Source: Candidatus Sungiibacteriota bacterium (GTDB lineage Bacteria > Patescibacteriota > Minisyncoccia > Sungbacterales > HO2-52-23). Taken from it: DNA of 39,579 nt. This document shows positions 5,171-23,236 of this stretch, piece by piece (positions within the stretch are counted from its first letter, which is position 1; the number at the start of each line of letters is the position of its first letter). The translations under genes and the position numbers were made by a program. The DNA is taken from assembly GCA_016186095.1 (NCBI GenBank), contig JACPMG010000021.1, forward strand, positions 1 to 39,579, written 5' to 3'. The notes below the pieces were generated by a model. It saw only the letters and a list, made by a program, of their open reading frames with translations. It was not told where the DNA came from and searched no databases.

Positions 5171-5178
5171 ACTAAGAG

Positions 5179-5408
5179 AGGCCATAGTGGGATTTGCACC
5201 CACGAATAGCGGTTTTGTCCCGATGCCAAAATTTTGGAGGCCACGGGCGGAATCGAACCGCCGAATAGGAGTTTTGCAGACTCCTGCCTTAACCACTTGG
5301 CTACGTGGCCATACTCCAAAATTTTGGATCGGGATCCCGACTTCCTTATCTTATTTAATAATGGTGCGTCGGGACAGACCGCTGTGTTAGCTGCTTCACC
5401 ACAGCACC
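5179..5408 (-). pseudogene. Split, decayed tRNA-Cys enclosing an intact tRNA-Cys
   Basis: Minus strand. The 5' half (5408-5375) has a D-arm GTG...CAC and anticodon 5' strand GCGGTCTG. The 3' half (5217-5179) has CAAAACCGC, then CTATTCG and T-arm GTGGG...CCCAC. Joined, they give stem GCGGT/ACCGC with loop CTGCAAA, anticodon GCA, as in the inner gene. The 157-bp insert starts TCCCGA and ends TCGGGA. The copy is decayed: the T-loop is TGCAAAT and the acceptor strands GGTGCTG and TATGGCC have two mismatches plus two wobbles. Confidence 0.7.
5238..5310 (-). tRNA. tRNA-Cys (anticodon GCA)
   Basis: 73-nt cloverleaf: acceptor GGCCACG/CGTGGCC with discriminator T, as usual for Cys; anticodon stem GGAGT/ACTCC around loop CTGCAAA; T-arm GGCGG TTCGATT CCGCC. 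It is flanked on both sides by the palindrome CCAAAATTTTGGA (5226-5238 and 5316-5328) and lies inside the split tRNA-Cys remnant. Confidence 0.95.
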
Positions 5409-5416
5409 ATATCTTA

Positions 5417-5767
5417 TTACAGGCCCCCATCTCGCTTGAGTTTGGCAAGCGATTTCTCGATTTTTTCACGCTCCATCTCCCCCTCGTCAATGGCAAAACT
5501 GATTCTCGGCACCGGACGCATGCGAACCCTCCGGTTGAGAAGTTGCTGCATATTATACACGTTTTTTCTCAAAATTTCCATTATTTTTTCGGTATCCGCG
5601 CCGAGGACGGAAATAAACGCAGTCGCGTAGTATTTATCCGGAGATACTTCGACCTTAGTGATGGTCACCAAGCTCTCATCCGGAAATTCCAATTCGCGGT
5701 CCAAAATCCCGGACAGCTCTTCTTTGAGAAATTCTTTTAATCTTTCAATCCTTTTTTCTGCAGCCAC
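5417..5767 (-). CDS. rbfA: Ribosome-binding factor A
   Basis: 116-aa cytosolic assembly factor that binds the 30S subunit near helix 1 of 16S rRNA late in maturation. The KH-type II fold pattern is clear: an N-terminal helix (RIERLKEFLKEELSGIL), the strand VTITKVEVSPDKYYATAFISVLG, then the helix TEKIMEILRKNVYNMQQLLNRRV and strand RPVPRISFAIDEG. It starts with GTG four bases after the infB stop codon, so the pair is translationally coupled as in the classical nusA-infB-rbfA operon; nusA is absent here. Length is normal for the family. Confidence 0.93.
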   Translation of the reverse strand: MAAEKRIERLKEFLKEELSGILDRELEFPDESLVTITKVEVSPDKYYATAFISVLGADTEKIMEILRKNVYNMQQLLNRRVRMRPVPRISFAIDEGEMEREKIEKSLAKLKRDGGL

Positions 5768-8241: not shown

Positions 8242-8243
8242 AA

Positions 8244-8330
8244 CGGCGGGAGGAGGATTCGAACCTCCGATACGGTTTCCCGTATAACGGTTTTCGAGAC
8301 CGCCCCATTCAACCACTCTGGCATCCCGCC
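8244..8330 (-). tRNA. tRNA-Ser (anticodon CGA)
   Basis: 87-nt class II cloverleaf: acceptor GGCGGGA/TCCCGCC, discriminator G, anticodon stem GCGGT/ACCGT with loop CTCGAAA (CGA), variable arm ATACGGGAAACCGTAT, T-arm GGAGG TTCGAAT CCTCC. No encoded CCA. Confidence 0.95.
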
Positions 8331-8451
8331 AAATTTTAAATGTCTCGGCGGAGCCTCGATCAAAAATTTGAGCCTCCGTGGTCGCCGGGGCGGCTTTTGC
8401 CGCCCGCTGAATGTTGCGTCACTCGCATTCAGCCCACTCCGGCATCCCGCC
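8331..8451 (-). repeat. Duplicated tRNA-Ser 5' end followed by hairpins
   Basis: On the minus strand 8451-8434 repeats the first 18 nt of the tRNA-Ser gene with one difference (17/18) and stops in the D-loop. Then follow hairpins GCTGAATG...CATTCAGC (8 bp), GGGCGGC-AAAA-GCCGCCC (7 bp) and GGAGGCTC...GAGGCTCC (7 bp with a G-G mismatch), ending just before the intact tRNA. Confidence 0.75.
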
Positions 8452-10597: not shown

Positions 10598-10669
10598 TGG
10601 GCACTGGGGGGATCGAACCCTCGACCTACTGTGTGTAAAACAGTCGCTCTACCACTGAGCTAAGTGCCC
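10598..10669 (-). tRNA. tRNA-Val (anticodon TAC)
   Basis: 72-nt cloverleaf: acceptor GGGCACT/AGTGCCC, discriminator A, anticodon stem ACTGT/ACAGT with loop TTTACAC (TAC). CCA is not encoded. On its 5' side lies a structured repeat region beginning with a truncated tRNA 5' end. Confidence 0.95.
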
Positions 10670-10906
10670 TTGTATATCTAACGGGGTGAATAAACGAGTT
10701 GCTGTTTCGCCCCCTCGGCGAAACCCAGAGAAATTTTTTACGCTCACACGTGCTTCGCACGGCTCGCTAAATTTCTCGCGAGAGCAAAGAAATTTGCTCT
10801 CGCCCAAGCCGACGTATTCTCCGACGGTGCCGTCGGAGTCCCGGTCGGCTCCCCGACTGCTCAATTATAAATTTTATAACGTGCGTCGGGGCTGAGCTAA
10901 ACGCCC
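10670..10906 (-). repeat. Truncated tRNA 5' end plus structured repeats before tRNA-Val(TAC)
   Basis: Minus strand 10906-10892 reads GGGCGTTTAGCTCAG, like the tRNA-Val(TAC) 5' end (13 of 15), and stops in the D-loop. It is followed by CCCCGACGCAC (10891-10881), a hairpin closed by GTCGGGG, further hairpins such as GACTCCGACGGCACCGTCGGAG-type stems, and the 102-bp element at 10704-10805. The same AGCTCAG-CCCCGACGCAC junction occurs at 22990-23007. Confidence 0.75.
10704..10805 (+). repeat. 102-bp covarying structured element, copy 1
   Basis: Aligns without gaps to 11630-11731; I count 83 of 102 identical positions. It contains hairpin GTTTCGCC/GGCGAAAC, an outer pair GAGAAATTT/AAATTTCTC, and the stem GCGAGAGCAAA/TTTGCTCTCGC. 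In copy 2 that last stem is GCACGAGCAAA/TTTGCTCGTGC, so two base pairs changed on both arms together. Confidence 0.85.
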
Positions 10907-10972
10907 TTATTCATGCGCCCATGAAGGATCGAACTTCAGACCTTTCGCATGTCAAGCGAACGCTCTACTTCA

Positions 10973-11073
10973 CCCCGCCACTTGGGCATGTGGGCAATAC
11001 AGGGATCGAACCTGTGGCCTTCACAATGTCAATGTGACGCTCTACCACTGAGCTAATTGCCCAAGTGGCGGGG
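10973..11073. repeat. 16-bp perfect inverted repeats framing tRNA-Val(GAC)
   Basis: CCCCGCCACTTGGGCA at 10973-10988 and its exact reverse complement at 11058-11073; the second arm overlaps the first bases of the inner tRNA. Confidence 0.9.
10991..11062 (-). tRNA. tRNA-Val (anticodon GAC)
   Basis: 72-nt cloverleaf: acceptor GGGCAAT/ATTGCCC, discriminator A, D-arm GCTCAGTGGTAGAGC, anticodon stem TCACA/TGTGA with loop TTGACAT (GAC), T-arm ACAGG TTCGATC CCTGT. It lies in the D-loop of a second, degenerate tRNA-Val with the same anticodon. Confidence 0.95.
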
Positions 11074-11094
11074 CAAGCTGAGCTAACCGCGCTC

Positions 11095-11396: not shown

Positions 11397-11475
11397 CGGC
11401 CCCACCGGGAATCGAACCCGCCTTCGCAGGCCGACACCCGCTTCGGCGGACGAAGGCCCGACTTGCCACATCTTG

Positions 11476-11611
11476 CCCCTCACTTAACTTCGATCATGCT
11501 TCGCCCCCAATGGGATTCGAACCCATGTACCGGGCTTGAAAAGCCCGTGTCCTGGGCCTCTAGACGATAGGGGCAGTATTTTATCTCATTTTTTCGAAGT
11601 TAAGTGAGGGG
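11476..11611. repeat. 18-bp perfect inverted repeats framing tRNA-Glu
   Basis: CCCCTCACTTAACTTCGA at 11476-11493 and its exact reverse complement at 11594-11611. The CCCTCACTTAAC core resembles the inverted repeat at 23237-23339. Confidence 0.9.
11502..11574 (-). tRNA. tRNA-Glu (anticodon TTC)
   Basis: 73-nt cloverleaf: acceptor GCCCCTA/TGGGGGC, discriminator G, anticodon stem CGGGC/GCCCG with loop TTTTCAA (TTC), T-arm ATGGG TTCGAAT CCCAT. Confidence 0.95.
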
Positions 11612-11629
11612 TGAAAAAGCGTGGCGTCC

Positions 11630-11731
11630 GTTTCGCCTCCTCGGCGAAACCCGGGGAAATCCTTAACGTTCGCATCTGCTCCGCACGGCTCACTAGATTT
11701 CCCGCACGAGCAAAGCAATTTGCTCGTGCCC
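11630..11731 (+). repeat. 102-bp covarying structured element, copy 2
   Basis: Gap-free homologue of 10704-10805. It starts one base from the 5' piece of the split tRNA-Glu. Stem GCACGAGCAAA/TTTGCTCGTGC shows paired changes relative to copy 1. Confidence 0.85.
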
Positions 11732-11800
11732 GCTAGACGATGGGGCCAAAATAGCTGATTTGCTTTTATAAGTTTATCAGAAACACGGAAAATTTCAATT

Positions 11801-15331: not shown

Positions 15332-15491
15332 ATTTTGCGGGATTCGTATAGTGGGCGAAAACTGAAGGCTTTCGCGGGAAATTTAGCGAGCCGGGGAACC
15401 CGCGCGAGCGTCAAAAATTTCCCGGGGGAGCGCTGACGGGAGCGCGACTAGCGAGCTTCCCAAGCCCAGTAAGACAACTTTGACAATACTT
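15332..15491 (+). repeat. Truncated tRNA-Gly 5' end plus structured repeats before tRNA-Gly
   Basis: GCGGGATTCGTATAGTGG (15337-15354) is a tRNA-Gly-like 5' end stopping in the D-loop. It is followed by hairpin GCGAAAACTGAAGGCTTTCGC, then an inverted copy of the core of the 102-bp element (15376-15423; outer arms GGGAAATTT/AAATTTCCC), the hairpin GCGCT...AGCGC, and CTTCCCAAG, which mimics the Gly(CCC) anticodon loop. The intact tRNA-Gly follows. Confidence 0.7.
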
Positions 15492-15563
15492 GCGGGCGTA
15501 GTTCAGCGGTAGAATGTCTGCTTCCCAAGCAGAAGATCGCCGGTTCGAATCCGGTCGCCCGCT
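15492..15563 (+). tRNA. tRNA-Gly (anticodon CCC)
   Basis: 72-nt cloverleaf: acceptor GCGGGCG/CGCCCGC, discriminator T, anticodon stem TCTGC/GCAGA with loop TTCCCAA (CCC), T-arm GCCGG TTCGAAT CCGGT. Confidence 0.95.
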
Positions 15564-22981: not shown

Positions 22982-23065
22982 GCCGGAGTAGCTCAGCCCC
23001 GACGCACTGCTGTATAATTTAAAAAGGTGAAGTCGGGGCTCCGACTAAACGTCGGAGCGGTAGAA

Positions 23066-23173
23066 CCTGCCCGCCATAGCCCGAGCCCCTTTAGTTCAGT
23101 GGCAGAACAGCGGTATCGTAAACCGCATACGTCAGTTCGATTCTGACAGGGGGCTAAGGCGATGGCAGGCGGG
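23066..23173. repeat. Inverted repeats framing tRNA-Thr
   Basis: CCTGCCCGCCATAGCC (23066-23081) and GGCGATGGCAGGCGGG (23158-23173) are complementary at 13 of 16 positions. Confidence 0.7.
23085..23155 (+). tRNA. tRNA-Thr (anticodon CGT)
   Basis: 71-nt cloverleaf: acceptor GCCCCTT/AGGGGGC, discriminator T, D-arm GTTC...GAAC, anticodon stem GCGGT/ACCGC with loop ATCGTAA (CGT), T-arm GTCAG TTCGATT CTGAC. Confidence 0.93.
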
Positions 23174-23236
23174 GCAACTCTTTCGTAAACATGTAAACAG
23201 TAGGTCGGTGGTTCAAATCCACTCTCCGGCTATTTC

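Follow-up and report, generated by a model that had tools for sequence, protein, structure and literature searches.

tRNA genes are regarded as conserved and mostly vertically inherited. They also provide attachment sites for integrative elements, which are aimed at the parts around the anticodon and the T loop and rebuild the resident gene at its 3' end. Short palindromic repeats are known from the genes and spacers of bacteria, as in the Rickettsia palindromic elements and the REP/BIME sequences with their RAYT transposases. The double-hairpin elements of fungal mitochondrial DNA and the repetitive hairpin-forming elements of sponge mitochondria are likewise small, palindromic, apparently mobile and gene-less, and they are found between genes as well as inside RNA genes, where they are tolerated outside structurally important parts (PMC2800124).

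Here we describe a tRNA-Cys gene that is split by an insert holding both a hairpin and a second, complete tRNA-Cys gene. It lies in a stretch of 39,579 nucleotides (the window), which is one contig (C12) of the 0.68 Mb draft genome of a Candidatus Sungiibacteriota bacterium (G000). The original prediction placed a tRNA-Cys within the anticodon loop of another tRNA-Cys, and all of its elements lie where they had been placed, on the minus strand; our analysis extends it to other isotypes in the window, multi-level nesting elsewhere, a dispersed repeat family within the insert and the foreign type of the inner gene.

Anatomy of the split tRNA-Cys gene

On the minus strand, 157 bp (5218-5374) split the outer tRNA-Cys (5375-5408 and 5179-5217) exactly between G34 and C35, with GGTGCTGTGGTGAAGCAGCTAACACAGCGGTCTG on one side of the insert and CAAAACCGCTATTCGTGGGTGCAAATCCCACTATGGCCT on the other (Table 1). 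As proposed originally, the insert starts with TCCCGA and finishes with TCGGGA, and its removal restores the stem GCGGT/ACCGC and the loop CTGCAAA, followed by CTATTCG. Within the insert, an H1 hairpin is followed by a left arm, a complete tRNA-Cys with encoded CCA, and a right arm. The two copies of CCAAAATTTTGGA that had been noted around the inner gene do bracket it; however, they are not a simple direct repeat but a palindrome within longer inverted arms (TCCCGATCCAAAATTTTGGAG and CTCCAAAATTTTGGcATCGGGA), which flank the inner gene and include its 3' TCCA. In the predicted fold of the whole stretch, the outer anticodon stem is joined by the H1 hairpin and a long arm-arm helix with the inner cloverleaf at its tip, and the folding energy of the whole transcript is far lower than that of shuffled sequences (z -8.2).

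Only the inner tRNA-Cys looks functional, in agreement with the original prediction: it is recognized by both ARAGORN and Rfam (Table 1), and the acceptor of the outer gene is damaged. The outer gene is nevertheless better preserved than had been thought. Its T loop, which was described as lost, is not, since the T stem (GTGGG/CCCAC) is unbroken and T loops of the UGCAAAU type are also seen in intact tRNA-Cys genes of relatives (L035, L039, and L085), while its acceptor pairing is damaged rather than lost, with three Watson-Crick and two wobble pairs among seven and two mismatches. The inner gene is also not a simple recent duplicate, as had been argued from its stems, being 93% identical to the tRNA-Cys of another genome (G046) versus 65% to its own outer gene. 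The two outer halves together are 85% identical to an uninterrupted tRNA-Cys in a relative (G041/L084).

Table 1. Positions of nested and interrupted tRNA genes and their parts in the window.
Feature	Position	Strand	Basis or remark
Outer tRNA-Cys, 5' half, ends at G34, GGTGCTGTGGTGAAGCAGCTAACACAGCGGTCTG	5375-5408	-	sequence
H1 hairpin TCCCGACGC..GAAGTCGGGA, opens insert, kin to dispersed copies	5335-5374	-	alignment, covariance-model matches
Left arm TCCCGATCCAAAATTTTGGAG of inverted repeat flanking inner tRNA	5314-5334	-	repeat search, predicted fold
Inner intact tRNA-Cys(GCA), CCA encoded	5235-5310	-	ARAGORN; Rfam 67.7 bits
Right arm CTCCAAAATTTTGGCATCGGGA, overlaps final bases and CCA of inner tRNA	5218-5239	-	repeat search, predicted fold
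Outer tRNA-Cys, 3' half, begins at C35, CAAAACCGCTATTCG..TATGGCCT	5179-5217	-	sequence
Dead tRNA-Ser, 5' part	8330-8451	-	hairpin in D loop
Intact tRNA-Ser(CGA), preceded by dead tRNA-Ser part	8243-8331	-	
Intact tRNA-Val(UAC), preceded by third Val-like 5' end	10598-10669	-	
Third Val-like region	10700-10906	-	dead 5' end 10892-10906; D loop holds H1 10851-10891 and Rep2 10701-10807
Nested tRNA-Val, insertion in D loop	10914-11092	-	
Nested Val, outer 5' end	11078-11092	-	
Nested Val, left arm	11061-11077	-	
Nested Val, inner tRNA-Val(GAC)	10990-11062	-	
Nested Val, right arm	10968-10986	-	
Nested Val, outer 3' part	10914-10967	-	
Nested tRNA-Glu	11398-11747	-	
Nested Glu, outer 5' end	11733-11747	-	Rep2 in D loop, 11627-11733
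Nested Glu, arms	11594-11611 / 11476-11493	-	18 bp perfect
Nested Glu, inner tRNA-Glu(UUC)	11501-11575	-	
Nested Glu, outer 3' end	11398-11422	-	acceptor 7/7
Dead tRNA-Gly, 5' part	15337-15480	+	Rep2 in D loop, 15351-15451
Intact tRNA-Gly(CCC), preceded by dead tRNA-Gly part	15492-15563	+	
Nested tRNA-Thr	22982-23232	+	
Nested Thr, outer 5' end	22982-22996	+	double hairpin H1H2 in D loop, 22997-23057
Nested Thr, arms	23067-23081 / 23158-23173	+	
Nested Thr, inner tRNA-Thr(CGU)	23084-23156	+	
Nested Thr, outer 3' end	23203-23231	+	acceptor 7/7

Recurrence of the split in other genomes

A DNA search for the Cys locus among 93 related genomes recovered the outer gene, uninterrupted and in the same neighbourhood, in two of them (G009/L035 and G006/L039), where an rbfA-like gene precedes the tRNA-Cys and a tRNA-Leu(UAA) follows it, and G041/L084 has an uninterrupted outer-type tRNA-Cys adjoining a tRNA-Leu. 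The search for such a gene in relatives, which had been suggested as a check on the original prediction, was therefore successful: the two flanking pieces adjoin as one gene in G009 and G041 and do not occur independently of each other. Interrupted tRNA-Cys genes with a complete tRNA-Cys inside are present in G050, G003, G076, G052, G019, G015, and G022, and G043 has a degenerate interrupted copy. Strict sequence patterns missed most interrupted cases; a covariance-model search adds those of G130 and G136, and a scan by sequence pattern across 84,980 species genomes added Komeilibacteria, Buchananbacteria, Gottesmanbacteria, Levybacteria, Giovannonibacteria, other Patescibacteria, and two Omnitrophota, the named loci with the nested-Cys pattern being mostly Parcubacteria/Patescibacteria. 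Insertion at the same base is found at about 20 Patescibacteria loci and two Omnitrophota loci, the insertion point lying everywhere between CTG and CAAA, or at the anticodon-loop equivalent with one point change. The two Omnitrophota loci (L104 and L134) carry the nested tRNA-Cys arrangement beyond Patescibacteria.

The outer genes are in various states. Many are damaged or truncated (e.g., the window, L050, L086, and L259), the 3' half being gone in G002 (L050), and those of L036, L041, and L042 are intact save for the insert. A third, older Cys level is present at L062/L122 and L094, and third-level remains were found at L119 and L125. Across the insert, the outer anticodon stems of 15 Cys loci form 65 of 75 possible Watson-Crick pairs, compared to a mean of 46.6 and a maximum of 59 in 20000 permutations of partners; this null was used instead of an earlier one with swapped flanks, which was inflated by the ends common to all Cys inserts. 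The corresponding comparison of the arm helices gave a modest difference (mean 9.3 vs. 6.2, with swaps reaching up to 12). Chance is excluded by the uninterrupted outer genes in relatives, the same-base split in independent genomes and the pairing across the insert, and an assembly error is unlikely, because the pattern occurs in independent assemblies, a one-contig genome among them.

At 14 of these 15 loci, the inner gene is nearer to the tRNA-Cys of another genome than to its own outer gene, with identities that are usually 90-96% to the former and usually about 53-78% to the latter, several of the latter values understating the similarity because the outer gene carries additional inserts. 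The D stem is GCG/CGC in the outer genes vs. GCC/GGC in the inner ones in most cases from the host's class (Paceibacteria-type), and L112 is the exception in which inner and outer genes are of one type. Being close to the tRNA-Cys of other genomes and distant from its own outer gene, the inner tRNA-Cys looks imported.

Nested tRNA genes of other isotypes

Nested tRNA-Val, tRNA-Glu, and tRNA-Thr in the same window (Table 1) rule out an element specific to Cys. Both ARAGORN and Rfam (29.8 bits) call a second tRNA-Val(GAC) on the minus strand (10915-10988), but this call is an artefact, composed of the right arm together with the broken outer gene's 3' part. Outside the window, G000 contains nested Lys, Thr(UGU), and Val(CAC), and probably nested Gln, while the single contig of G003 contains nested Arg, Ile(UAU), Met, Ile(GAU), Thr (three loci), Tyr, Trp, and Val, with three levels for Met and four for Ile(GAU) when read by eye. 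One arm sequence, CCCCCACCTATT with its near variants, flanks the inner Arg, Ile, and Met genes of G003. Same-isotype nesting thus extends to at least nine amino-acid families, and the inner isotype equals the outer one wherever both can be assigned.

An automatic test, which looks for a T-arm and acceptor remnant to the right of an intact tRNA and a complementary acceptor with similar positions 8-13 to its left, detected nesting at 3 of 37 tRNAs in G000 (0.21 expected from swapped flanks) and at 7 of 58 in G003 (0.37 expected), both counts being lower bounds, since outer genes that are interrupted in the T loop or whose acceptors are damaged escape the test, the Cys case among them. This acceptor-pairing test replaced an ARAGORN peel test that was confounded by tRNA clusters and degenerate outer genes.

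Other arrangements of tRNA genes were observed in the same two genomes. The outer tRNA-Thr genes around the CGU inner gene (22982-23057 of the window) and the UGU inner gene (L336) have a D-loop double hairpin in common, which suggests that a tRNA-Thr already bearing the hairpin was duplicated prior to the arrival of the inner genes. Three separate tRNA-Pro genes of G000 (L326, L330, and L337) each stand behind a similar GC-rich inverted repeat that ends in CGAAGG directly at the gene start. In G003 (0.92 Mb), more than 20 tRNA genes are crowded into about 3 kb (L316, G003:C1:439820-442715), and many of its isotypes are also present elsewhere in that genome.

Dispersed hairpin families

The hairpin that opens the Cys insert belongs to a dispersed family. 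H1 consists of TCCCGACGC, about 25 AT-rich bases and AAGGAAGTCGGGATCCCG, with a second, variable hairpin after it. It occurs without a tRNA at L002 of G000, with copies in G003, G010, G013, G015, G019, G034, G058, and G084, and a covariance model finds it in 50 of 383 genomes of the class. Among 20 loci fetched from an unselected model search and classified by eye, eight are located in sequence of tRNA origin (Cys, Cys, Phe, Ile, Ala, Ala-like, Thr, and Ser); tRNA genes make up well under 1% of these genomes. A double hairpin also lies at the 3' end of fusA in G003 (L075) and G015 (L077), with the final ~65 bp of fusA repeated on the far side of the hairpin (81 and 89% identity, respectively), as if the insertion had restored the gene, and two H1 double hairpins are inside group I introns of G003 rRNA genes (L193 and L223). 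The second family, Rep2, whose hairpins covary, is present in 29 of 93 relatives, often in the D or T loops of dead tRNA copies and otherwise in spacers. One hairpin family is thus found at unrelated sites (tRNA, rRNA-intron, fusA, and intergenic) with empty sites in relatives, as would be expected of a mobile palindromic element.

At L193 and L223, the 23S and 16S rRNA genes carry group I and group II introns together with LAGLIDADG genes. A homing-endonuclease origin was rejected, as the two H1 copies near LAGLIDADG are peripheral inserts in the rRNA group I introns; PF00961 had no match in G000. A RAYT/REP origin was rejected as well: these genomes commonly carry Y1 transposase genes, but H1, Rep2, and the arm motifs occur at none of 30 Y1_Tnp loci. 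Carriage by phages was also discarded, the matches to viral contigs (1 for one pattern and 21 for another) having no tRNA-Cys at the match.

Origin of the nested genes

On balance, we hypothesize that palindromic mobile elements enter the loops of tRNA genes, that only insertions with a same-isotype cargo survive, and that the outer genes then decay, a reading to which we give somewhat more credence than doubt. At the Cys locus, a small palindromic mobile element, carrying a complete foreign tRNA-Cys between its inverted-repeat arms and moving as a single unit, would have killed the resident (outer) tRNA-Cys by entering its anticodon loop, leaving the inner gene to do the work and the outer one presumably not expressed as a functional tRNA. 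The machinery would favour tRNA-gene loops, namely the anticodon loop between TG and CA here and the D and T loops elsewhere. Insertion into a single-copy tRNA gene would be lethal unless the cargo was of the same isotype, so that survival would account for the isotype matching, the survivors being genes nested like dolls of one isotype. Because each new inner gene would again be a fresh, intact target, rounds could repeat to three or more levels while the outer genes decay. That these units form a new class of mobile elements in Patescibacteria and Omnitrophota, which insert in tRNA-gene loops with a tRNA cargo and break the resident gene while supplying a foreign same-isotype substitute, is a serious possibility that we advance tentatively.

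Some observations count against such elements. No transposase, integrase or nuclease could be tied to them, the 30 Y1 loci included, and an unsystematic look revealed few armed tRNA cassettes outside a same-isotype outer gene, which free movement predicts. Where outer genes bear hairpins in a D or T loop, their stems are spared, which could reflect past selection on those RNAs. Furthermore, the intact copy differs little or hardly at all from the broken one at L112, L374, L375, and L388, the last three being young events in which the copies are identical in their remaining parts, and local duplication or gene-restoring insertion may therefore also act.

These four loci indeed look like local duplicates, as would be expected if ordinary horizontal transfer or duplication had supplied a new tRNA gene in place of the old one and the redundant copy had later been invaded by unrelated palindromic repeats, with nesting as a by-product. 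Hairpin-bearing dead copies that lie beside, rather than around, an intact gene for Gly, Ser, Phe, and others are also consistent with this scenario. However, it leaves unexplained the order of intact within broken genes, the use of the same base in many lineages and the matched inverted arms, and we consider it unlikely.

Alternatively, the insert might be a true intron, which also holds a second tRNA and is spliced from the outer tRNA by itself or by proteins, the arm helix joining the splice sites. The fixed site in the anticodon loop, an insert closed by a helix, the unusually stable predicted fold, the covarying Rep2 hairpins and the fully intact outer genes of L036, L041, and L042 all fit splicing, and the last of these weigh to that extent against mobile elements. 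However, the tRNA intron endonuclease (PF01974) is absent from G000, G003, G050, G076, and G052, with archaeal controls positive, and RtcB (PF01139) is absent from four of these five interrupted genomes, including G000, being present in G052. Even with permissive E-values, Rfam detects neither a group I nor a group II intron at 5171-5425, and the insert cannot house the core of either type, since only about 81 nt remain besides the tRNA. Many outer genes are mismatched or truncated, the outer gene is redundant given the inner one, and the complete genome of G003 has an intact tRNA gene for each amino acid. By the features tested, the nested unit is not a member of the intron families; splicing of the outer tRNA-Cys is disfavoured on these genomic grounds, and an intron seems quite improbable.

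Two or more gene-restoring insertions by site-specific recombinases, leaving a displaced 5' piece and a displaced 3' piece around one intact gene, would match the direct repeats of tRNA ends beside an intact gene at G003 Asp, G003 Ser, and L388 and the repeated fusA end of G003 and G015, but are hardly to be expected at the Cys locus, where the 5' and 3' remnants meet at G34 and C35 with no gap or overlap and pair with each other rather than with the inner gene, whose acceptor and D stem differ.

If palindromic elements with a tRNA cargo do break and replace resident tRNA genes, they would represent a natural break-and-rescue system that turns over the tRNA set of its host and leaves stacked fossil layers behind. 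The Cys locus would then document how foreign versions replaced an essential tRNA gene one after another, each within its predecessor, and nested loci in general would preserve, layer by layer, the turnover of tRNA genes in reduced genomes, accounting for tRNA-like fragments near their tRNA genes. Such a mechanism implies a mobilising activity aimed at the loops of RNA genes. The nested loci also call for caution in tRNA annotation, in which both false and interrupted genes may appear.

Comparison with known systems

We found no earlier report of tRNA genes nested in same-isotype tRNA genes in the open-access literature that we searched. The H1 part behaves, as far as the descriptions go, like the mitochondrial hairpin elements (PMC2800124); by contrast, the elements here are bacterial, often lie in tRNA loops and come with a complete replacement tRNA gene. 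Unlike the Rickettsia palindromic and REP-RAYT elements, they hold tRNA genes, and H1 is not beside Y1 transposase genes. Archaeal and eukaryotic tRNA introns and the bacterial group I introns in tRNA genes are likewise anticodon-loop insertions closed by a helix (PMC4090602, PMC3984707), whereas no ribozyme or endonuclease was found here and the insert holds its own tRNA of the same isotype. The 157-bp insert contains no integrase gene and is too small for one. Like integrative elements, the nested units target tRNA genes and offset the damage that they cause; however, rather than the 3' end of the resident gene being restored, a whole foreign gene substitutes for it, and both old halves stay in place.
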